Below are positions 8,359-39,500 of a DNA stretch of 42,698 nucleotides, piece after piece. Made by a program: the position numbers and the translations under genes. How positions within the stretch are numbered: position 1 is the first letter of the stretch; the number at the start of each line of letters is the position of its first letter. The notes beneath the pieces were generated by a model. The model saw nothing but the letters and a program-made list of their open reading frames with translations. It was not told where the DNA came from and searched no databases. This DNA comes from a virus: positions 1 to 42,698 of the IMG/VR virus record IMGVR_UViG_3300045996_000520, one strand, 5' to 3'.

Positions 8359-9354
8359 TTATTCCTTCCGTCCAAAATCATTTGCTCTGTCCAATATCCT
8401 GAGCGCTTTCGATCGTTGCGGCAACCGTCGGTAGTGTTTACGCGTCACTCGAACATCACCGTGGCCGAGGCGGTCAGCGGCTTCTTGATCGGTGTCTGCT
8501 TCGCTTGCCGACTTCGCGCGGATGTCATGGAAGTGGAAGTCATCGACGAAGCCAGCGGCCTTGCATTTGCGTCGTAGACGTTGCCATTGGCTCTGGAAGC
8601 CGTTCGCAGTGTAGGGCTGCCCCTTGCGGTTACAGACCAGATAGCGCCTCACCTGCGGCCTCTCACGAAGCAGGGCTTGAACCGTCAAGCGAAGCTCGTC
8701 ATTCCATTCGACCAGCTGAAACTTGCCGGTCTTGCCGCGCTCGAACTGAATTCCTTCGTCGACGAGATGCCGGCGCTCCAGTGTTCTGATGGTGCCCTCA
8801 TCAATGCCGGTGATATACGAGATGTCCATCGCGTAGCCGATCATTGGTTGAGCTCGCTCGCGAACGAAAAGAAATGCCTCGTCGGTGACGTAATGGTCAC
8901 GGGCTTTCGATTCTGGAAACTTGAGCCCGAAGCATGGGTTCTCGTGCTTGATCACTCCGTCCTGACGGGCGAAGGTGAGCATCGCAGATAAGCAACGCAC
9001 CTCCTTCTTTGCCTGCTCGATCTCGCCTCTAGCGCGCCAGTAACGCCACACGTGATGCGGCTCAATGTCTGCGGGGCGCATGTGGCCGAACGTGGGCTCG
9101 AGCATCGACCATTCCTGCCGGCGATTCTTCTGTGTCTTGGCTGCCTTCTTGTGCAGCTCCGCTATCTGATACCTCGCCCACAGTGCCGACACCGTTTCTG
9201 TAGCGTCGGCGCCCTCAACGATCTTCGCCCAGGTCTTCAGGCCATCGGGTAGGGCGATCCATTCCTCAGTTCCTGGCTTGACGTAGTAGAGCTTCCCGCG
9301 CCGCTCGTACACCCGTGGTGGAAGGTGTTTGTTCTTGCGTCGGTTGCGCCCCAT
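8359..9354 (-). CDS. int: Tyrosine recombinase (attP-proximal integrase), first catalytic Arg absent
   Basis: The 331-residue protein has a basic N-terminal segment, a SAM-like core-binding domain (about 50-145) and a tyrosine-recombinase catalytic domain. Visible catalytic residues are Lys208 (GKTGK), His276-Asp-Ile-Arg279, His298 (LGHGD) and Tyr308 (RKHYRR). The position of the first catalytic Arg, normally in T-G-x-R-x-G, reads TGIDEGTI with Asp185. That loss should impair strand cleavage in a typical enzyme. The gene ends 6 bp from attP, as usual for the enzyme using it. It starts at an ATG overlapping the DUF4224 stop (TAATG). Confidence 0.85.
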   Translation of the reverse strand: MGRNRRKNKHLPPRVYERRGKLYYVKPGTEEWIALPDGLKTWAKIVEGADATETVSALWARYQIAELHKKAAKTQKNRRQEWSMLEPTFGHMRPADIEPHHVWRYWRARGEIEQAKKEVRCLSAMLTFARQDGVIKHENPCFGLKFPESKARDHYVTDEAFLFVRERAQPMIGYAMDISYITGIDEGTIRTLERRHLVDEGIQFERGKTGKFQLVEWNDELRLTVQALLRERPQVRRYLVCNRKGQPYTANGFQSQWQRLRRKCKAAGFVDDFHFHDIRAKSASEADTDQEAADRLGHGDVRVTRKHYRRLPQRSKALRILDRANDFGRKE

Positions 9355-15553: not shown

Positions 15554-15858
15554 GCGGCTACCTTCGCCAGCAGGTGCGGCGCCTTCTCGAGGATGTACGC
15601 CTGCGTGCGGATCATTCCTTCGAGCAGGCACTGGCGAACGAACTCGCGGTCCAGGTGCGTGAAGCGACGGCGGTCGACCGCGTCATGACAGTTGAAGCAG
15701 CCGAACGCGATGAACAGATCCGGCATCTTCTTCCCCGTGCCGTGGTAGCCGGGCAGGGTGACGTGACACGCAACCGTCTGCTCCGGATCGTGCGAGCACA
15801 CGGCGTCGATGCGGATCATGCAAGGCTTGCCGTTGGCGAAGTCAGTTAGTGCGCTCAT
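15550..15858 (-). CDS. DUF1364 / YbcO-like putative nuclease
   Basis: The 102-residue protein shows the YbcO (DUF1364) pattern: GKPCMIRIDAVCSHDPEQTV, then CHVTLPGYHGTGKKMPDLF, a C-x-x-C-H-D-x-x-D-R motif (CFNCHDAVDRR) and a conserved helical end with MIRTQAYI. The family is an HNH-like metal-binding nuclease found in lambdoid recombination regions. It follows NinB with a 17-bp overlap, the usual company. Function as a recombination nuclease is inferred from family and context. Confidence 0.85.
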   Translation of the reverse strand: MSALTDFANGKPCMIRIDAVCSHDPEQTVACHVTLPGYHGTGKKMPDLFIAFGCFNCHDAVDRRRFTHLDREFVRQCLLEGMIRTQAYILEKAPHLLAKVAA

Positions 15859-16237
15859 CTGGGTCCTCTATGTAGATGCCGTGCTCTGCCATGCGCTGCT
15901 GAATAAATGCGACGTACTCCGCAAACTCAGTCGTCGATAGCTTCGAGCTCCGACGCACGGGACGTAGACGCTTACGGCCAAGGCCCTCCAACGTCTCCCA
16001 TCCGCTCCACTCGCCGAGGCAATATTCGTGTACGTCATCTGCAGACCAACCGGGCAATCGCTCGCAGATAGTCTTGTAGACGTAGCCCCACAAAAATCGA
16101 TTCTGTTCATCACTGCGCCTCGGCTTTTTCTCAGTGATCTCGACTCGCCACTCTCTGTCCTTTGAGAGAGCGGAGAGGAACGCAACGATGCGCGCCAAAC
16201 TCCGCTCTCCCTTGGGCAGATTTAGTACCTCAGCCAT
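15842..16237 (-). CDS. ninB: NinB-like recombination protein
   Basis: The 131-residue protein carries the NinB/Orf pattern: EWRVEITEKKPRRSDEQNRF, LWGYVYKTI, and PGWSADDVHEYCLGEW, ending in a helical FIQQRMAEHG. Lambda NinB (Orf) binds single-stranded DNA and helps load annealing proteins in RecBCD-independent recombination. It lies directly after the ERF and SSB-tip genes (ATG 16237 overlapping the previous stop by one base). This gives a complete annealing-type recombination block. Confidence 0.88.
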   Translation of the reverse strand: MAEVLNLPKGERSLARIVAFLSALSKDREWRVEITEKKPRRSDEQNRFLWGYVYKTICERLPGWSADDVHEYCLGEWSGWETLEGLGRKRLRPVRRSSKLSTTEFAEYVAFIQQRMAEHGIYIEDPDERTN

Positions 16238-16488
16238 CAGAACGGGATGTCGTCGTCAAAGCCTGCGGAATCGGTGACCGGCGCTTGAGCGCGTCGCTGC
16301 TCCGTCTGCGCTTCCTTCGGCTTGAATGAGAGCGAGAAGAAACGACCGTTTGTGCCTTCCTTCACCCATGCGCTGATCCAGTACGGCTTACCTTCGATTA
16401 GGCACTGCCCCGTGTGAGTCGGATGCGTGTCCTTCTCTTTGCGCTGGTTGGCACCTAACGTGCCGCTGTTGTCTCGACGTTCACTCAC
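16237..16488 (-). CDS. Small protein ending in an SSB-like C-terminal tip (83 aa)
   Basis: The start is GTG 16488, inside the ERF stop (GTGA). Residues 25-57 (GQCLIEGKPYWISAWVKEG then RFFSLSFKP) form a compact beta-rich domain. A disordered linker follows, and the C-terminus is GFDDDIPF. That tip is nearly identical to the acidic tail by which bacterial SSB recruits recombination and replication proteins. It lacks the rest of an SSB of normal length (about 170 aa). I infer a single-strand-binding or SSB-mimic role in phage recombination; the domain itself is unrecognised. Confidence 0.7.
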   Translation of the reverse strand: MSERRDNSGTLGANQRKEKDTHPTHTGQCLIEGKPYWISAWVKEGTNGRFFSLSFKPKEAQTEQRRAQAPVTDSAGFDDDIPF

Positions 16489-17126
16489 GCTGCAACCCTC
16501 TCACCACGTTTTGCCATCAGATCTTTGATCGTGTCCTTCACCGGGCCGTTCAGCTTCGTCCACACGGCGGTCACGAATGCCTCGCCGCCCTGACGGACTT
16601 CATCCCAGATCTCGAGCACGTTTTTGTCTTCCGTAATCGCCTTGTTGATCCGATTCATGTACTCGGTGGCTTTCTTGGAATCCTGACGATCCCAGCCTTC
16701 AGGCTTCGGGCTGTGGATGTCCTTGTTCGTATCCTTGCCGCTGGCCGCGTTGCCGTCGTCGTCGACCTGAGCCACGCCCACAGCCGCCGCAAGGGCGTAG
16801 CGGCGCCCGTAAGTGATCGCTGAGCCCATCGCTTGCGGGCTGTCGTCCTTCGGGTTCAGGCGCAGTCTTGAGCGCATCCACTGGCCCGATGCGTGGGCGA
16901 GGGTGGTGATGACGAACACGCCGCTGTCATCGGCCTCGGTCTGCTGAATGACGGCCAGACCGTTCTCAGAAAGGGCGGTCCGGCATGCGTCCCACACGCT
17001 CGCCAGGTCCGCATACTTCGACTTGAAGAAGGGATTGGCGGAGTCCTTGAGGGCTCCGGTGATCTTGCCTTGCGCCTTCGCTAGCGCTCCGGCAAGTTCG
17101 TTGATCTGCTCTGATTGCTCGCTCAC
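16485..17126 (-). CDS. erf: ERF-family single-strand annealing protein
   Basis: The start GTG 17126 overlaps the stop of the previous gene (GTGA) and has GGAG upstream. The frame continues to 17306 but that part is not family-like. The 213-residue product shows the ERF core: NELAGALAKAQGKITGALKD, NPFFKSKYADLASVWD, then GLAVIQQTE, RLRLNPKDDSPQAMGSAITY and GRRYALAAAVGV. ERF proteins form rings that anneal complementary strands and circularise phage DNA after infection. Position before NinB and YbcO agrees. Confidence 0.9.
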   Translation of the reverse strand: MSEQSEQINELAGALAKAQGKITGALKDSANPFFKSKYADLASVWDACRTALSENGLAVIQQTEADDSGVFVITTLAHASGQWMRSRLRLNPKDDSPQAMGSAITYGRRYALAAAVGVAQVDDDGNAASGKDTNKDIHSPKPEGWDRQDSKKATEYMNRINKAITEDKNVLEIWDEVRQGGEAFVTAVWTKLNGPVKDTIKDLMAKRGERVAA

Positions 17127-17332
17127 GCTGTTGCTCCAATTCTTGCCATTGCCGTTCGTCGGACACGGTCGATCCTCCACTGCGCGAGGTTCACAACCGC
17201 ACGGTCGGGGTTCTGGTTGTGCCAGGTGACCAGCTTGCGATTGACCTCGGTCGTCTTCTTGTTGAGTCCGACCCGCACGCGCCACATGCGTTCCTGCAGA
17301 TCGCACTCGCGAAAATACTGCTCGTAGTTCAT
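17123..17332 (-). CDS. Small hypothetical protein (69 aa)
   Basis: ATG 17332 lies in the stop of the preceding gene (ATGA). The product is basic and helical, with YEQYFRECDLQERMWRVRVG and WRIDRVRRTAMARIG segments. It directly precedes erf. Unrecognised. Confidence 0.65.
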   Translation of the reverse strand: MNYEQYFRECDLQERMWRVRVGLNKKTTEVNRKLVTWHNQNPDRAVVNLAQWRIDRVRRTAMARIGATA

Positions 17333-29392: not shown

Positions 29393-29686
29393 ATGGGCGC
29401 ACCGGTAGGGAATCAGAACGCAGCCAAGGCGAAGGTTTGGCATGCCGCAATCCTGCGTGCGTTGGACAAGCGCGGCGCAGGTGATCGCGTAGCGGCACTG
29501 GATGAGTTGGCGGGGAAACTTCTTGAGCTTGTAGCTACAGGCGACCTCGCGGCACTGAAGGAATTTGGCGATCGGATGGACGGCAAACCCGCTCAGGCGG
29601 TTGCTGTCTCTGGTGATGGCGAAGGCGGACCAATTCAGCACTCGCTGACCGTGGGCTATGTTGATCCAGCTCCCGCGGAAACTTGA
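29393..29686 (+). CDS. terS: Terminase small subunit (DUF5681-like)
   Basis: The 97-residue protein begins MGAPVGNQNAAKAKVWHAAI and continues ALDELAGKLLELVATGDLAA and KEFGDRMDGKPAQA. This is the small phage protein pattern found directly before large terminases of podoviruses. It should recognise packaging-initiation DNA and regulate the large subunit. AGAGG lies upstream. It overlaps terL by 29 bp. Confidence 0.72.
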   Translation: MGAPVGNQNAAKAKVWHAAILRALDKRGAGDRVAALDELAGKLLELVATGDLAALKEFGDRMDGKPAQAVAVSGDGEGGPIQHSLTVGYVDPAPAET

Positions 29687-30914
29687 GCCGTTACGGCATT
29701 CCAAGCGCTACAAGATCATTCGAGGTGGGCGCGGCTCTAGTAAGAGCTGGAGTGTCGCGCGTCAGTTACTGATCGATGCAGCGGAGAAGCCGCTACGCAT
29801 CCTGTGCGCTCGTGAGATTCAGAACACGATTGCAGAGTCCGTTCATCGTTTGCTGTCTGACCAGATAGCAGCAATGGGCTTGGCTGACTTCTACCGCATC
29901 CAGGACAAGGTGATCACTGGCCGCAATGGCAGTGAGTTTGTGTTCCAGGGCATTCGCGGTCTGGACGTCGTGAAGATCAAGTCCTTCGAGGGCGTTGATC
30001 GCGTTTGGGTCGAAGAGGCGCAGGTTGTCACCAAGAAGTCTTGGGACATCTTGGAGCCGACGATTCGAAAACCAGGCTCTGAGATTTGGGTGACGTTCAA
30101 CCCAGAGCTTGATACGGACGAGACTTGGCAGCGCTTCGTCGAAAACGCGCCGGGCGATGCTGTCGTGATTGAGATGAACTGGCGTGACAACCCTTGGTTC
30201 CCGCCAGAGCTAGAAACGCTTCGCAAGCAATGGTTAGCACGCGACCCAGAAGGCTACGAAACCGTATGGGAGGGCAAGTGCAGGCCCGCGGTAGAGGGCG
30301 CGATCTACCGCAAAGAGATCGAGACAATGACGCGCGACAAGCGTCTGCGTCAGGTCCCTTACGATCCATTGCTCAAGGCCCACACGGTGTGGGATCTGGG
30401 CTGGAACGATCTCACCTCCATCATCATGGTGCAGCGCTGTGGCGGTGAGCTGAGAATTATCGACTTCATCGAGGAGTCGCATCAGACGCTGCCTGATTAC
30501 GTCCAGCAGCTCAAAGAGCGCAAGTACAACTGGGGCACTGACTATCTGCCCCATGACGGCGACAGCGCCCGCCTGGAGTCCTCTGGGCTCTCAGCGCGCG
30601 ACATCCTCACGAAGCTTGGCCGCAACGTCTCCATCATCCCAAAGGGCGATGTAGAGGCTGGCATCAAGGCCGCGCGCGTGGTGTTCGGCCGCTGCTATTT
30701 CGACAAGGACAAGGCCACAGGGCTGGTCGGCCATCTCAAGCGCTATCGCCGACAGATCAACCAGACGACCTTGGAGCCTCAAGGCCCGCTGCACGATGAG
30801 CACAGCCACGCAGCGGACGCCTTTAGATATCTGACCATGGTTGCGGACAAGTTCACGAATGACGACGACGGCTGGAATCGCAAGCTTAAGTATTCGAACG
30901 CAGGAATCGTTTAG
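29658..30914 (+). CDS. terL: Terminase large subunit
   Basis: The 418-residue DNA-packaging motor has Walker A GGRGSSKS (23-30), Walker B VWVEEA (116-121) and a WVTFNPE coupling segment. The C-terminal nuclease domain has acidic residues in HTVWDLGWNDLTSI, LPHDGD and HEHSHAADAFRY-type motifs. Length is normal for the PBSX/Terminase_3-like family. It uses ATP to pump DNA into the prohead and cuts it. With the permuted-looking ends, a headful mode is plausible. The stop overlaps the portal GTG (TAGTG). Confidence 0.95.
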   Translation: MLIQLPRKLEPLRHSKRYKIIRGGRGSSKSWSVARQLLIDAAEKPLRILCAREIQNTIAESVHRLLSDQIAAMGLADFYRIQDKVITGRNGSEFVFQGIRGLDVVKIKSFEGVDRVWVEEAQVVTKKSWDILEPTIRKPGSEIWVTFNPELDTDETWQRFVENAPGDAVVIEMNWRDNPWFPPELETLRKQWLARDPEGYETVWEGKCRPAVEGAIYRKEIETMTRDKRLRQVPYDPLLKAHTVWDLGWNDLTSIIMVQRCGGELRIIDFIEESHQTLPDYVQQLKERKYNWGTDYLPHDGDSARLESSGLSARDILTKLGRNVSIIPKGDVEAGIKAARVVFGRCYFDKDKATGLVGHLKRYRRQINQTTLEPQGPLHDEHSHAADAFRYLTMVADKFTNDDDGWNRKLKYSNAGIV

Positions 30915-34443: not shown

Positions 34444-35460
34444 ATGGCACAGATTACCGGTACTACGTGGACGCACGCCACGGCTAACTCTCAGACCTAC
34501 GCATCCAACATCCGCGAGGATGTCGAGGATGTGATCTGGGAACTGGACCCCATGGATACGTGGGCGCTCACGAACCTGGAGCGCACGAAGGCGCAAAGCA
34601 CGTTCCACGAATGGCTGGCAGATGATCTTGCAGCGGCTGGCGCGAACCTCATCCGCGAAGGTGACGATGCAACTTACGTCACGGCTGCCCCGGCTCGCCG
34701 CCTGGGTAACTATCTGCAGATCAGCAACAAGACCTTCATCGTGTCCGACACGTTGGAGGCGGTGAACAAGATCGGCCGCGAGAAGGAAACGGGCCGACTC
34801 GGCACGAAGCTCCTGAAAGAGTTGAAGCGCGACATGGAATACGCGCTGGTTCGTAACCAAGCGTCCTCGCTCGGTCAGGAAGCCACTGCGCGCGCCTCTG
34901 CGGGCATGGAGAGCTGGATTGAAGGTCCAACGACCACGACGGCAGGTGAGCTTGCGAACGTTGTGTCCGCAACGACCAACGCCGCTTCCCACACGACTCC
35001 TGGCTTTGCCTCTGGCACGGTCGCAGCGCCTACGGACGGCACGACTGGCGCCCTTACGGTGGGCCAGCTCAATGCGGCTCTCGGTGGTTCGTGGCAGGAC
35101 GGTGGCGATCCGCGCGTGATCCTGGTGGGCGCACGGCAGAAGGCTGTGATCGACCAGTTCACGGGTGTCGCAACTCGCTTCGTCGATACGAGCCCGCGCA
35201 AGCAGGCCCCGATCATCGGCGCCGCGAATATGTACGTCTCGAGCTACGGCTCACCGCACGTGGTGACGCTGTCTCGCTACGTGCGTGACTCGGTCGTGCT
35301 GTGCATCGATCCGGACTACTGGGCGGTTGCCTTCCTGCGTAACCCGCAGATCAAAGATCTCGCCAAGACCGGCGATGCAACGAAGAAGTTGCTGGTCACG
35401 GAGTTCGGTTTGGTATGTCGAAACCCCAAGGCTTCTTCGAAAGTCGTTGGCTGCGCGTGA
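34444..35460 (+). CDS. Major capsid protein (SU10-type, DUF5309)
   Basis: The 338-residue protein shows the SU10-like (DUF5309) pattern: AQITGTTWTHATANSQTYAS, then WELDPMDTWALTNLERTKA, FHEWLADDLAAAGANL, RRLGNYLQISNKTFIVSDTL, EAVNKIGREKE and LKELKRDMEYALVRNQ. It is a HK97-fold shell protein expected in several hundred copies. It follows the scaffold gene. The next gene overlaps its 3' end. Confidence 0.92.
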   Translation: MAQITGTTWTHATANSQTYASNIREDVEDVIWELDPMDTWALTNLERTKAQSTFHEWLADDLAAAGANLIREGDDATYVTAAPARRLGNYLQISNKTFIVSDTLEAVNKIGREKETGRLGTKLLKELKRDMEYALVRNQASSLGQEATARASAGMESWIEGPTTTTAGELANVVSATTNAASHTTPGFASGTVAAPTDGTTGALTVGQLNAALGGSWQDGGDPRVILVGARQKAVIDQFTGVATRFVDTSPRKQAPIIGAANMYVSSYGSPHVVTLSRYVRDSVVLCIDPDYWAVAFLRNPQIKDLAKTGDATKKLLVTEFGLVCRNPKASSKVVGCA

Positions 35461-35969
35461 TCTGCATAGTTGGTCACGGGCCTTCGATCCTTACGGGTCG
35501 CGGGTCCGTGATCGACTCTATGCAGGTGGTCAGGCTGAAGCATGGTCTAGCGATCAAGCCAAAGCCTGATCCGATTCACTGGGGGGCGCGCACGGATTTC
35601 CTCTGTGCGCGTTCTCTCGTGTATCGCGATGAGAAACACAAAGAGAAGTTCTGGCACTTCAACGATGACCCCGAGTGGTTGTCGTACTTCTCACGATTCG
35701 AGCCGCGACACCCAAAGCCATCCACAGGCTTGAGTGCAGTGTTCTGCGCCATCGAGCGCGGCTACGACGATATCGCACTGATCGGCTTCGACCGATTGCT
35801 AAACCTCGATGACACGAAGAGCAGGCGCTGGAACGAGCCGAGCATGTACAGCATGTACGGCCACGACCAACGCGCCGAACACGAATGCCTGAAGAGTCTG
35901 CCGATAAGGATCACTGACCTTGGCCAAGTTTCTCGACTGGGACCCGCTGCGGGGAGTTCAGCAGCTTGA
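35457..35969 (+). CDS. Glycosyltransferase-like protein, sialyltransferase-type (170 aa)
   Basis: The start GTG 35457 lies in the capsid stop (GTGA); an ATG at 35415 would overlap the capsid gene by 46 bp. The product begins MICIVGHGPSILTGRGSVID and SMQVVRLKHG, which resembles the V-G-x-G-P-S nucleotide-sugar loop of GT29/GT42 sialyltransferase-like enzymes. A later IALIGFDRLLNLDD and YSMYGHDQRAEHECL fit the C-terminal half with a His. It is shorter than usual for the family. It starts a cluster with two more glycosyltransferase-like genes and a methyltransferase. Confidence 0.65.
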   Translation: MICIVGHGPSILTGRGSVIDSMQVVRLKHGLAIKPKPDPIHWGARTDFLCARSLVYRDEKHKEKFWHFNDDPEWLSYFSRFEPRHPKPSTGLSAVFCAIERGYDDIALIGFDRLLNLDDTKSRRWNEPSMYSMYGHDQRAEHECLKSLPIRITDLGQVSRLGPAAGSSAA

Positions 35970-36264
35970 AGATACGACTGACGTAGCGGGCCGTGGGGCG
36001 CTGCAGATCCATTATCGCCAGGACGTTGAACCGATCCTCGAGCTCGCGAAATACGAGCGCTTAAACGGCCTGAGCGACAAGGCAGGCAAGAAGCAAGACC
36101 TGTACCTGTACGCGCGCATTCCGCCCGTAATCATCCTCAAGCTCAAGTACGAGCACGGCGTCGACATCTTCAAACGCGATCACCTCAAGCGCGCGATGGA
36201 GATCATCAACCGGGACTACCCCGCGTTGAAGTGCACTGAGAAGCAACACTTTCTGAAGAACTAA
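35920..36264 (+). CDS. Conserved hypothetical head-region protein (114 aa)
   Basis: The start is TTG 35920, with AAGGA upstream, overlapping the previous gene by 50 bp. The product has AKFLDWDPLRGVQQLEDTTD, IHYRQDVEPILELAKYERLN, LYLYARIPPVIILKLKYEHG and a basic C-terminus. To my recollection such proteins accompany capsid genes in podoviruses, but no function is known. Its position inside the glycosyltransferase cluster may be incidental. Confidence 0.65.
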   Translation: MAKFLDWDPLRGVQQLEDTTDVAGRGALQIHYRQDVEPILELAKYERLNGLSDKAGKKQDLYLYARIPPVIILKLKYEHGVDIFKRDHLKRAMEIINRDYPALKCTEKQHFLKN

Positions 36265-37659
36265 ATGGCTCAAGTCCTCCAATTGCAGGCACAGAAGAAA
36301 GACGAGACCTACGTCTCACGCGTCCGCAAGCTCATGGAGGCTGGCGAGGTTGACGACGCCTACAAGATCCTTGATGAGATCTTGATGAAAGATCCGACCA
36401 ATGCACAGGCGCTGTGCTTGGCCTCGGACATCATGAAGAAGGCGAAGAAACTGCCGATCGCGTACTCCCTCGCGAAACAGGCGGCAAGCATCTGTCCCGA
36501 ACGACCAGAGCCATGGAATGCGGTCGGGCACGCTGCACAGTTGCTGTGGCGACTGGATGAGGCGCAGCAGGCATATCGCAAGGCACTGCAGCGCGCCGTA
36601 TCGAAAGAGCAGAAGACGCTCTACAAAAACAACATGGCCTCCGTCCATCTCGACGCAGGCGAATTCACGAAGGCGGAGAAGCCTTGTCGTGAAGCCCTGG
36701 AGCTGATGGAGGACAACAACACCCGGCACAACCTGGGGCTGTCCTTGCTGGCTCAGCGACGATGGAAAGAGGCATGGCCGAATTACTCGGCATCGATCGG
36801 CTCGCCCCGGCGCCTCAATTACAAGTACATGAAGCCGGCTGAACCGACATGGACCGGCGAGAAGGGGCAGAAGATCGTTGTATACGGTGAGCAGGGGCTA
36901 GGTGATGAGATATGCGCCGCCTCGATGCTCCCTGATGCGATTCGTGATTCACGCGAAGTAATCATTGATTGCGATCATCGGCTCGCTAATCTGTTCAAGC
37001 GATCGTTCCCGCAGGCGAAGGTCTACGGAACGCGCTGGAAGAAAGAAATCGCGTGGGCAGAGGATGACCGCAAGATCGATGCGTCCGTCTCTGCGTTCGA
37101 ACTCGGCAAGATTTATCGCAACGCCGATGAGGACTTTCCAGGCACGCCATATCTCACGCCAGACCCCGAACGCGTGCTGATGTGGAAAGCGCTGTTCGCC
37201 ACGAAGAAGAAGCCGGTCATCGGCATCGCCTGGACCGGTGGCGTTTGGCACAACGCCTCGATGCATCGACAGCTCCCGATCGCTGAGTGGAAGCCTCTCT
37301 TCGATGCCGTAGACGCTCATTGGGTGTCGCTGCAATACAAGGACGCATCCAAGGACATCGTAGGTACCCCAGTCGTCCAGTACGCGCACGCAACGCTGAC
37401 GCAGGACTACGACGACACCGCCGCACTGGTCGCCTCCTGTGACCTCGTGATTGGCGTGCAAACGAGTGTTCATCACCTGGCAGGTGCGCTGGGTGTTCCC
37501 TCTTGGGTCTTCATCCCCAAGGTTTCCCAGTGGCGCTATGGAGAAGGCTTCACCACTGTCCCCTGGTATCGCTCGATGAAGCTGTATCACCAGCAGGGCG
37601 GCCAATGGCCAATAAAGAGCATCGCGAATGACCTTAAGTCCCACTTTCATCAGTCCTGA
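36265..37659 (+). CDS. TPR-glycosyltransferase fusion (GT9-like)
   Basis: The start is ATG 36265, directly after the previous stop. The 464-residue product has about four TPR-type helix pairs in residues 10-180 (AGEVDDAYKILDEILMKDPT, PWNAVGHAAQLLWRLDEAQQ). The rest is a glycosyltransferase domain: KIVVYGEQGLGDEICAASML, VIIDCDHRLANLFKRSFPQA, GIAWTGG, WVSLQYKD, and DLVIGVQTSVHHLAGALGVP. The latter motifs match heptosyltransferase (GT9) enzymes. TPR-GT fusions often glycosylate proteins, as O-GlcNAc transferases do, so a phage virion protein is a plausible target. Confidence 0.85.
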   Translation: MAQVLQLQAQKKDETYVSRVRKLMEAGEVDDAYKILDEILMKDPTNAQALCLASDIMKKAKKLPIAYSLAKQAASICPERPEPWNAVGHAAQLLWRLDEAQQAYRKALQRAVSKEQKTLYKNNMASVHLDAGEFTKAEKPCREALELMEDNNTRHNLGLSLLAQRRWKEAWPNYSASIGSPRRLNYKYMKPAEPTWTGEKGQKIVVYGEQGLGDEICAASMLPDAIRDSREVIIDCDHRLANLFKRSFPQAKVYGTRWKKEIAWAEDDRKIDASVSAFELGKIYRNADEDFPGTPYLTPDPERVLMWKALFATKKKPVIGIAWTGGVWHNASMHRQLPIAEWKPLFDAVDAHWVSLQYKDASKDIVGTPVVQYAHATLTQDYDDTAALVASCDLVIGVQTSVHHLAGALGVPSWVFIPKVSQWRYGEGFTTVPWYRSMKLYHQQGGQWPIKSIANDLKSHFHQS

Positions 37660-38200
37660 GTACAGGGCTCAGCAAGAGCACCTGCACAACACGACTAACT
37701 ACGGCATAGCATCGATCAAGTACGCAGCACTCGTCACGCAGATCATCGACAAGCTCGAGATCACGCATCTACTCGACTACGGCTGTGGCAAGCGGATGAA
37801 CCTCGCTAAGCACATCAAGCCCAAGCACAAGCTCACGTACCAAGCGTACGACGCGGGCGTTCCGGAGCTTTCAGAGCCACCGGCACCCGCTCAGTTGGTG
37901 TGCTGCATCGACGTGTTAGAGCACATAGAGCCCGAATACCTGGACAACGTGTTGGATCATCTGCACTCACTCACCGAGGCGGTTGCCTTCCTGACGATCC
38001 ACACGGGACCCGCTGCGAAGGTGCTGCCTGACGGGCGCAATGCACACCTGATCCAGCAGCCGATGGAGTGGTGGCTGCCGAAGATCATCCAGCGCTTTGA
38101 GATCCAGACGATTCAGGCAACGCATGCGAATGCGTTCCACTGCATCGTTCATCCGAAGACGAAGATCGAAGCCGTGGACGGTACGAAACTTTCAGCATGA
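37628..38200 (+). CDS. SAM-dependent methyltransferase-like protein (190 aa)
   Basis: The start is ATG 37628, overlapping the TPR-glycosyltransferase by 32 bp. Residues 48-57 (LLDYGCGKRM) match the glycine-rich SAM-binding loop of class I methyltransferases, and VCCIDVLEHIEPEYL matches the second motif. The rest is helical and beta sequence of normal length for a small-molecule or sugar methyltransferase. Being coupled between two glycosyltransferases, it may methylate the glycan or its carrier. Confidence 0.8.
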   Translation: MTLSPTFISPEYRAQQEHLHNTTNYGIASIKYAALVTQIIDKLEITHLLDYGCGKRMNLAKHIKPKHKLTYQAYDAGVPELSEPPAPAQLVCCIDVLEHIEPEYLDNVLDHLHSLTEAVAFLTIHTGPAAKVLPDGRNAHLIQQPMEWWLPKIIQRFEIQTIQATHANAFHCIVHPKTKIEAVDGTKLSA

Positions 38201-38880
38201 GCGTAATACCCTGCTACGTCGGCTTCGATCAACGCGAGGCAACTGCATATCACGTGTGGTGTCAGAGCGTGATTGAGCGATCCTCGCAGCCGGTCGCTTT
38301 CATTCCCTTGCATGGACCGCTGTTGCAAAACTTCGACGGTCAGCAGGACGGCACCAATGCGTTCATCTATTCGCGCTTTCTGGTTCCGTACCTGTGTGGC
38401 TACGAGGGCTTTGCGTTATTCGTGGATGGCGACATGGTGGTGCTGGAAGATATCGCGAAGCTGTGGGAGCTGCGTGATCCATCGAAAGCGCTCCAAGTCG
38501 TGAAGCACGATTACAAGACCAAGAACCCGCGCAAGTACATCGGCACTCCGATGGAGTCTGACAACCTCGACTATCCAGGCAAGAACCGCTCGTCTGTGAT
38601 GCTGTTCAACTGCGCACACCCGAAGAACCGCAGGCTCACCAAGGAGCTTGTCGGAGAGGCGGGCGGACAATTCCTGCATCGCTTCTCCTGGTTGTCGGAT
38701 GAGGACATTGGCGAATTGCCACCGCAATGGAACGCACTTGCACTGGAGCAGGATCTGTCATGCGCATCGTTGATCCACTACACCTGCGGCATACCGGCGT
38801 TCGATCACTACCAGCATAGCGATGGCGCTGACCACTGGCATCGCGCCAAGCGCAACGCAATGCACGTTGTAGGTGAGTAA
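38197..38880 (+). CDS. Glycosyltransferase family 8-like protein (227 aa)
   Basis: ATG 38197 lies in the methyltransferase stop (ATGA). The product shows CYVGFDQREATAYHVWCQSV at the start, TNAFIYSRFLVPYLCGYEG, and the metal-binding D-x-D in LFVDGDMVVLEDI (77-79). WNALALEQDLSCASLIHYT-type sequence follows near the end. These fit GT8-type, metal-dependent retaining transferases. Length is that of a catalytic domain without anchor. The stop overlaps the adaptor start (TAATG). Confidence 0.82.
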   Translation: MSVIPCYVGFDQREATAYHVWCQSVIERSSQPVAFIPLHGPLLQNFDGQQDGTNAFIYSRFLVPYLCGYEGFALFVDGDMVVLEDIAKLWELRDPSKALQVVKHDYKTKNPRKYIGTPMESDNLDYPGKNRSSVMLFNCAHPKNRRLTKELVGEAGGQFLHRFSWLSDEDIGELPPQWNALALEQDLSCASLIHYTCGIPAFDHYQHSDGADHWHRAKRNAMHVVGE

Positions 38881-39500
38881 TGGCGATTATCTCGGATTAC
38901 GCAACACTGCAGACGGCGGTGGGGGATTGGCTTGCCCGCAGTGACCTGAGCTCGTTCATCCCTAACTTCATCCAGAACTGGGAATCGGACTTCTACCGAG
39001 ATCCCGAGAACTGGGCCTCGTGGATGGAATCTGCGCTAAGCGTCACGATCACCAACAGCGTCGCCGCAGTCCCGGACGACTATCTCGGCCTAAAGATTGG
39101 TTACATCTCTGGCCAGACATCGCCGCCGCTCAAGCGCATCTCACTCGACCAGCTTTACCAGCGCTATCCGCGTGCTGTGAGTGGCGGGCAAGCCGCGTAT
39201 GTCGCTCGTAACGGCGCCAATCTCGAGTTTGGCCCGATCCCTGGTAGTGGGACGCTCGTCGGCACCTACTACGCAAAGCCAACGCTCATCCGCGATGACA
39301 GCGACGGAATCAACTTCCTGATCACCGATTGCCCGGACCTCTGTGTCTATGGCTCGCTCATCGCCGCGGAGCCGTTCGTGAAGAACGACAAGCGCCTTGG
39401 GCTGTGGCAGCAGATGTACGCAGGTGCATTGCAGTCGTATCGCAAGCGCTTCAAGGAAGAAGACTACAGCGGCTCGCCGCCAAATACGGTTGTCGTCTAG
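38880..39500 (+). CDS. Head-tail adaptor protein (P22 gp4-like)
   Basis: The 206-residue protein starts at ATG 38880. It begins SDYATLQTAVGDWLARSDLS and FIPNFIQNWESDFYRDPENW and continues DDYLGLKIGYISG, KRISLDQLYQRYPR, YYAKPTLI, and PDLCVYGSLIAAEPFVKNDK. This is the pattern of podovirus tail accessory or adaptor proteins that bind below the portal. Directly followed by a gp10-like gene with TAGTG overlap, it marks the start of the tail machine. Confidence 0.82.
   Translation: MAIISDYATLQTAVGDWLARSDLSSFIPNFIQNWESDFYRDPENWASWMESALSVTITNSVAAVPDDYLGLKIGYISGQTSPPLKRISLDQLYQRYPRAVSGGQAAYVARNGANLEFGPIPGSGTLVGTYYAKPTLIRDDSDGINFLITDCPDLCVYGSLIAAEPFVKNDKRLGLWQQMYAGALQSYRKRFKEEDYSGSPPNTVVV

Follow-up and report, generated by a model that had tools for sequence, protein, structure and literature searches.

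Gene content points to a probable virion-protein glycosylation cassette behind the capsid gene of SU10-type phages

Gene order within the head operon

The window analysed here is the whole 42,698-nucleotide stretch of IMG/VR virus record IMGVR_UViG_3300045996_000520, which carries a head module of SU10 type. Its portal (PF23899, E 3.6e-167), major capsid protein (MCP; 34444..35460, PF17236, E 8.7e-76) and head-tail adaptor (38880..39500, PF24175, E 1.8e-25) each score far above the Pfam cut-off. Between the MCP and adaptor genes, at 35457-38880, lies a block of five genes which, like the two genes flanking it, are all on the + strand. The first encodes a small sialyltransferase-fold protein of 170 aa with a GTG start (35457..35969), and its ORF overlaps the MCP stop by 4 bases. 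It is followed by a 114-aa protein with a TTG start (35920..36264; phrog_3982, 4.8e-5), a 464-aa FlmG-type protein consisting of TPR and GT-B glycosyltransferase parts (TPR-GT; 36265..37659; TPR_2, 6.6e-10), a SAM-dependent methyltransferase with a DYGCGK motif (37628..38200; PF13489, 5.8e-8) and a GT8-type glycosyltransferase with a DxD motif (38197..38880; PF01501, 1.6e-5). The adaptor marks the end of the block. All six neighbouring junctions from the MCP through the adaptor overlap or abut, in agreement with the first-pass annotation, which had placed the ORFs at these positions and described three glycosyltransferase-type proteins and a methyltransferase as translationally interlocked with the head genes.

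No sigma-70-like promoter was found across 33-40 kb. In comparison with a close relative, dN/dS ranges from 0.03 to 0.11 for all five genes between the MCP and the adaptor, indicating purifying selection, and the block recurs at the equivalent place, beside SU10-type capsid genes, in dozens of IMG/VR contigs, as the synteny search proposed in the earlier annotation anticipated. Because of this selection and recurrence, the cassette is not a chance arrangement. The phage also carries an integrase gene and is thus probably temperate, which makes the position of the cassette in a presumably late operon informative; from this position, the cassette would be expressed late.

The 114-aa protein had been suggested as a carrier or target. 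This idea was rejected, as SU10-type phages whose MCP-adaptor interval lacks sugar genes have homologues of it at the equivalent site. By the same comparison, it is an ordinary core protein of the head operon, outside the sugar machinery.

A TPR-glycosyltransferase of FlmG-like architecture

The TPR-GT, the central enzyme of the block, is a single soluble protein, with TPR repeats at the N-terminus (aa ~11-177) and a GT-B domain at the C-terminus (aa ~200-464), an architecture similar to that of FlmG. Its AF2 model (pLDDT 94) comprises TPR helices and an alpha/beta glycosyltransferase domain. In Foldseek, protein O-glycosyltransferase folds rank first, with SPINDLY, OGT and the GT9 structure 3tov among the matches, but TM-scores are merely 0.3-0.4 and much of the OGT/SPINDLY score comes from the TPR repeats. 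OGT and SPINDLY, which are protein O-GlcNAc or O-fucosyl transferases, share with the phage protein a TPR superhelix joined to GT-B; however, the phage catalytic domain appears nearer to GT9 and features an Asp of the GLGD motif (D214) which is invariant among its relatives. Layout and fold together uphold the earlier grouping of the TPR-GT with soluble protein O-glycosyltransferases.

FlmG itself is a soluble flagellin O-glycosyltransferase of Caulobacter crescentus with an N-terminal TPR and a C-terminal GT-B domain (PMC7591256). The phage TPR-GT profile is homologous to TPR-GTs from flagellin loci of Caulobacteraceae, matching FlmG-length proteins of 603 and 596 aa in Phenylobacterium (E 2.5e-88 and 1.1e-76), whose genes are 1.1-2.2 kb from flagellin genes. 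Moreover, six bacterial chromosomes have the trio of methyltransferase, GT8 and TPR-GT next to flagellin genes, in one case with FliD located between two flagellins, and the phage methyltransferase is 57% identical to that of a Tepidimonas flagellin locus. Unlike FlmG, the phage TPR-GT is shorter, resides in a head operon and is paired with a capsid gene rather than with flagellin. Transfer of pseudaminic acid to Thr/Ser is a mark of the FlmG-like class; NeuB, the pseudaminic-acid synthase, is absent from the window, so a pseudaminic-acid donor would have to be supplied by the host.

Accessory enzymes

Assignment of the TPR-GT to GT9 and of the small sialyltransferase-like protein to GT29 fared unevenly: the window proteins alone fall below the Pfam cut-offs, whereas their relatives and folds support both families. 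The catalytic domain of the TPR-GT reaches 15.8 bits against a Glyco_transf_9 cut-off of 22, while 16 of 41 TPR-GT relatives match this family at E <= 0.01 (best 2.4e-6). Likewise, the sialyltransferase-like protein obtains 11.7 bits for PF00777 against a cut-off of 23, and 5 of 14 members of its family match PF00777 (best 6.1e-6). The AF2 model of this protein (pLDDT 82) has sialyltransferases as its top 13 PDB matches in Foldseek (CstII, GT29). H136 and E141 are invariant in the family, and its HD-x3-E motif aligns on that of ST3Gal I (2wml). A sialyltransferase fold does not imply sialic acid as the donor. A tblastn search against cultured phages returned no match for this protein.

The GT8-type enzyme lies just above the Pfam Glyco_transf_8 cut-off (25.1 bits vs 24.3); PF01501 is matched by 30 of the 46 family members (best 4.9e-9), and both Asp residues of the DxD motif, D77 and D79, are invariant across the 46 sequences. 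As for the methyltransferase, its HEN1-like matches span just ~35 residues around the N-terminal SAM-binding region. None of the four enzymes has a membrane segment, the maximum 19-residue hydropathy being 1.03-1.22.

Coupling to the capsid lineage

On the capsid tree, the distribution of the TPR-GT (44 capsids with the gene, 26 without) is explained by 1 change, while shuffles average 21.2 changes and 0/500 are as low. No loss of the TPR-GT was found on this tree within the cassette-bearing capsid clade. On the tree, the gene was thus gained or lost only once, and it is a constant component of a single SU10-type head clade.

Pairwise distances of the TPR-GT correlate with those of the MCP at r 0.935-0.936, while MCP correlations with portal, scaffold and adaptor are 0.889, 0.884 and 0.705. 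The MCP-TPR-GT correlation does not significantly exceed the MCP-portal one (bootstrap -0.017 to 0.119), and the TPR-GT therefore behaves as a core head gene, without singling out the MCP as target. The TPR and glycosyltransferase parts do not differ in how they track the MCP. The accessory enzymes are tied to the MCP more weakly than the TPR-GT (methyltransferase 0.59, GT8 0.50, sialyltransferase-like 0.66), and the three genes are exchangeable parts of the cassette.

A segment of the MCP at aa 157-205 (SWIEGPTTTT...TDGTTGALT; 34912..35058, + strand) has a higher Thr/Ser content when the phage carries the cassette than when it does not. Mean S+T is 14.6 in the presence of GT8, 11.8 in its absence and 9.5 without the cassette; given that the cassette changes once on the tree, this comparison represents one event and is confounded by phylogeny. 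The composition faintly hints at the segment as a candidate O-glycan acceptor.

Related arrangements in other phages

Unrelated phages with HK97-type or DUF6260-type capsid genes also have sugar genes immediately after them. The Manatee Spring podovirus MW202512 shares the order MCP, TPR-GT, methyltransferase, GT8 and adaptor at 30-41% identity, but has an inserted HNH gene, and neither the sialyltransferase-like gene nor a homologue of the 114-aa protein was found there. In Tetraselmis viridis virus S20 and the IMG/VR contigs L017, L019 and L020, sialyltransferase-like, glycosyltransferase or methyltransferase genes come immediately after the gene for the capsid; connector genes lie downstream of them in S20 and L019. 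These four differ from the window in having an HK97-type capsid and siphovirus-type head-tail genes, and a TPR-GT of the cassette family was not detected in them. Comparable genes follow a tail protein in Caulobacter phage CcrColossus, and some enzyme relatives in large phages are located away from capsid genes. When searched with local HMMs built for the cassette families, the annotated sialyltransferase or glycosyltransferase genes of CcrColossus, S20 and DLP6 gave no match and are consequently regarded as the same kind of enzyme and not as homologues.

To our knowledge, few phages, chiefly mycobacteriophages, have been shown to carry a glycosylated virion. Glycans are reported on the virion of mycobacteriophages such as Che8, which encode glycosyltransferases (Freeman et al. 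2023, doi 10.1016/j.chom.2023.05.028, as described in PMC11652166, PMC12619734 and PMC11256854), and they occur on capsid and tail-tube subunits alike (PMC12619734, citing that study). As proposed here, the phage-encoded enzymes there presumably act on the capsid or tail of the phage itself. Mycobacteriophages nonetheless belong to a different head lineage, and in a related F1 mycobacteriophage the glycosyltransferase genes are located towards the 3' end of the genome and not between capsid and adaptor (PMC11256854); furthermore, the glycans are demonstrated in those phages and predicted here.

Discussion

Decoration of the virion by its own enzymes is the reading which the gene content and gene order best support. 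The block is probably a FlmG-like cassette for O-glycosylation of a virion protein, with a head protein as the target, most likely the MCP. In the model that we infer for linkage, target, order of sugar addition, donor, methylation and function of the glycan, the TPR part would bind a newly synthesised head protein, in all likelihood the MCP encoded immediately upstream, and the TPR-GT would place the initial sugar on Thr/Ser, using a nucleotide sugar produced by the host. The GT8-type and sialyltransferase-fold enzymes would extend or cap this sugar and the methyltransferase would methylate the glycan, so that the mature capsid would end up with a short, partly methylated glycan.

It is rather unlikely that the target of these enzymes is not the MCP but a different virion protein, such as the adaptor, portal or a tail protein. 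The cassette abuts the adaptor as tightly as the MCP, distances of the TPR-GT correlate with those of portal (0.904) and scaffold (0.895) as well, and both the gene position in CcrColossus and the tail-tube glycans described for mycobacteriophages would fit such a target. Against the adaptor in particular, its correlation with the TPR-GT is the weakest (0.72) and drops to a partial value of 0.24 once the MCP is accounted for, and the fact that sugar genes follow the capsid gene again in HK97-type phages, which are unrelated, favours the MCP.

The bacterial relatives beside flagellin genes suggest that the phage enzymes could have been acquired as flagellin-directed ones, which would then modify a protein on the host surface, most obviously flagellin, for instance masking a receptor late in infection. 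This is improbable: for a gene that masks a receptor, one would predict repeated gain and loss, and expression in the lysogen or early in infection, whereas the TPR-GT is interlocked with head genes and shows no loss in the capsid clade, and the viral loci yielded no flagellin gene.

Conversion of the O-antigen or envelope, in which LPS or cell-wall sugars of the host would be the substrate, is an equally poor prospect and was rejected. The probable temperate lifestyle would suit it, as would LPS-enzyme relatives among the three folds (WaaF, E 0.0076; WbbM, 1e-5; CstII). However, membrane glycosyltransferases and flippases are typical of clusters for serotype conversion, and the cassette encodes no membrane proteins; TPR and GT-B parts are, moreover, the architecture of protein-directed enzymes, and the genes are in the head operon.

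Hydroxymethylated bases usually derive from a thymidylate-synthase-type gene, and none was found in the window (PF00303). Modification of phage DNA bases, a known hypermodification role of phage glycosyltransferases (Pyle et al. 2024, cited in PMC12619734), is therefore rejected as highly improbable, the head-operon location and the protein-binding TPR domain arguing against it as well.

Virion self-decoration by a FlmG-like cassette would tie phage glycosylation to a defined enzyme class, the TPR O-glycosyltransferases, and to a capsid clade with a single gain or loss of the TPR-GT. It also provides a precise substrate hypothesis. A more tentative proposal, which may well prove wrong, is that this whole SU10-type clade made capsid glycosylation a constitutive step of head morphogenesis, having acquired a flagellin-type (FlmG-like) O-glycosyltransferase at the site between capsid and adaptor genes and kept it while swapping the elaborating enzymes; the sugar may then serve assembly or stability and not optional camouflage. 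Sugar enzymes directly behind the capsid gene recur in unrelated head types and, if the reading is true, capsid sugar coats would be a widespread and predictable trait of phages, with a bearing on stability, adsorption and immune recognition.

Organisation of the head module

The window, an IMG/VR virus record, carries a SU10-type head module composed of terminase (29658-30914), portal, scaffold, major capsid protein (MCP, 34444-35460) and adaptor (38880-39500). The gap between MCP and adaptor is occupied by five same-strand ORFs, and every neighbouring pair is overlapped or abutted. A sialyltransferase-like gene (35457-35969) starts with the GTG at 35457, within the MCP stop, and overlaps by 50 bases, from 35920, the ORF of a 114-aa protein (35920-36264). 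This directly abuts (36264/36265) a gene combining TPR repeats with a GT-B glycosyltransferase domain (TPR-GT, 36265-37659), followed by a Methyltransf_23-type SAM methyltransferase (37628-38200; 32-base overlap from 37628), a GT8 enzyme with an invariant DxD (38197-38880; ATGA at 38197) and the adaptor (TAATG at 38880). A scan limited to consensus matching detected no sigma-70-like promoter in 33-40 kb of the window. Compared with the close relative L009, all five genes have dN/dS values of 0.03-0.11, near those of the MCP fragment (0.05) and the adaptor (0.06), which indicates that they are real, maintained genes.

Elsewhere, the window encodes a tyrosine-type integrase (8362-9354, minus strand; phrog_1 match, 1.1e-34), an Erf-like annealing protein (16488-17306, minus strand) and a NinB/Orf recombination mediator (15845-16237, minus strand), from which the phage carrying this SU10-type head is probably temperate.

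Predicted functions of the gap genes

The TPR-GT model (pLDDT 94) matches the folds of SPINDLY, of bacterial and human OGT and of one GT9 structure, and 16 of its 41 relatives match GT9. For the 35457-35969 family, the PDB matches of a 14-relative profile are mostly sialyltransferases with weak E-values, and GT29 is matched by five of the 14 (best 6.1e-6). The first 13 fold matches of the AF2 model (pLDDT 82) are GT42 and GT29 sialyltransferases (E 2e-3 to 1.5e-2, TM about 0.5), and the invariant HD-x3-E of the family aligns on that of ST3Gal I. The product is predicted to be a minimal sialyltransferase-fold protein, a designation of fold which does not imply sialic acid as donor.

The 114-aa protein had been suggested in the first-pass annotation as a possible carrier or target, but this role is not sustained by its distribution. 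Its profile matches a protein of about 105 aa that lies between MCP and adaptor in 11 SU10-type phages from the annotated collection (E 1e-6 to 4e-28); for nine of these phages the annotation lists no glycosyltransferase there. As judged by homology, it is a core head gene and not a sugar gene. Cassette-free relatives (L166 11057-11404, L174 7721-8558, L181 11009-11984, L185 4869-5564) carry one or two small Thr/Ser-rich ORFs of 91-131 aa between MCP and the 114-aa homologue; the one tested had no Pfam match. These are possibly decoration or fibre proteins in a slot filled elsewhere by sugar genes.

Conservation across SU10-type capsids

The synteny search suggested in the first-pass annotation was seeded with the MCP only, the 80 nearest capsids being chosen without bias to sugar genes, and the TPR-GT block was found to recur beside SU10-type capsid genes. 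Where enough downstream sequence was available, the TPR-GT lies in the gap of MCPs at least about 45% identical, but at most of the remoter capsid loci the MCP, the 114-aa homologue and the adaptor occur with no TPR-GT among them. On a maximum-likelihood tree of 70 MCPs, including loci found via sugar genes, its presence requires one change (support 94/90; shuffled mean 21.2, none of 500 shuffles as low). MCP and TPR-GT distances correlate at r = 0.936. The corresponding value is lower for MCP and adaptor (0.705; bootstrap difference 0.073 to 0.383) and similar for MCP and portal (0.889, not significantly different). The accessory genes follow the MCP more loosely (methyltransferase 0.59, GT8 0.50, sialyltransferase-like 0.66); their order varies, and in some relatives they are absent, replaced or supplemented; among the additions and substitutes are GT9-type extras, further methyltransferases (FkbM-type and others) and a radical-SAM protein. 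These comparisons therefore identify the TPR-GT as a constant core and the remaining enzymes as a variable elaboration set.

In one subgroup the head genes separate the cassette into two parts, the GT8 homologue lying upstream of the portal and not in the capsid-adaptor gap (L130 3149-3856, L142 3859-4566, L147 4271-4954 and related loci). The radical-SAM/SPASM protein within the cassette of one relative (L072 11110-12039) hints at further modification chemistry.

Sugar genes near other capsid genes

Sialyltransferase-like, GT8 or methyltransferase genes also lie directly 3' of the capsid gene in unrelated phages, namely in HK97-type loci (L017, L019, L020) and Tetraselmis viridis virus S20, and behind a DUF6260-type capsid gene (L102). 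When 24 other records were tested, sugar genes were located within about 1 to 7 kb downstream of the HK97-type capsid gene in all five where one was found. In Caulobacter phage CcrColossus, a comparable set is instead placed after a tail protein. Two Manatee Spring phages encode a single Anp1-like glycosyltransferase flanked by the 114-aa homologue and the adaptor gene (L109 2367-3011, L113 6302-6931), apparently a separate acquisition at the same site.

In the same capsid-adaptor gap, Sinorhizobium phage phiM5 (L110 7349-8659) has a GDSL/SGNH hydrolase which, according to its annotation, was found in the virion proteome. Two 20-kb loci (L094, L089), with no Phage_capsid match in their records, show, on either side of methyltransferase and GT8 homologues, long runs of medium-sized ORFs that share one strand and have no annotation, possibly larger sugar islands.

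Bacterial relatives and flagellin loci

Scanning bacterial genomes with the methyltransferase profile yielded 80 chromosomal loci, mainly from Beta- and Alphaproteobacteria, at which no SU10-type head genes were detected. TPR-GT and GT8 homologues occur at many, and all three genes at 22. In six of these 22 a flagellin gene adjoins the trio, although three of the six are similar to one another and hence not fully independent; Tepidimonas charontis has the gene order methyltransferase, GT8, TPR-GT, flagellin, FliD, flagellin. Seven flagellin genes were observed in the 1.2 Mb scanned, against about 0.7 expected by chance (from 80 matches per about 147 Mb of genomes). At most of the bacterial loci, among them those closest to the phage GT8, no flagellin gene is seen.

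In Phenylobacterium genomes, the phage TPR-GT profile matches TPR-GTs of 596-603 aa (E 1e-76 to 1e-88) located 1.1-2.2 kb from flagellin arrays. They resemble, in length, architecture and setting, the published description of FlmG, the soluble Caulobacter crescentus O-glycosyltransferase of 596 residues whose TPR part binds flagellin (PMC7591256).

Proposed role of the cassette

Mycobacteriophages provide known cases of virion glycosylation (Freeman et al. 2023, as reported in citing papers). For the cassette between capsid and adaptor, a partial literature search found no prior description.

The MCP is the most likely target, being encoded just upstream and more abundant than any other surface protein. 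Its Thr/Ser-rich segment at aa 157-205 is a candidate acceptor, whose association with the cassette amounts to one phylogenetic transition. Portal, adaptor or a tail protein could be modified instead, and the MCP is not decisively set apart from these by co-variation or by position. Action on flagellin, LPS or DNA is less consistent with the position of the cassette, the lack of membrane proteins among its enzymes and the lack of a thymidylate-synthase-type gene in the window.

The best supported reading is that a FlmG-like enzyme, made late, would O-glycosylate a head protein in the cytoplasm, and that the accessory enzymes would then variably elaborate and methylate the glycan, steps which beyond gene content we infer.
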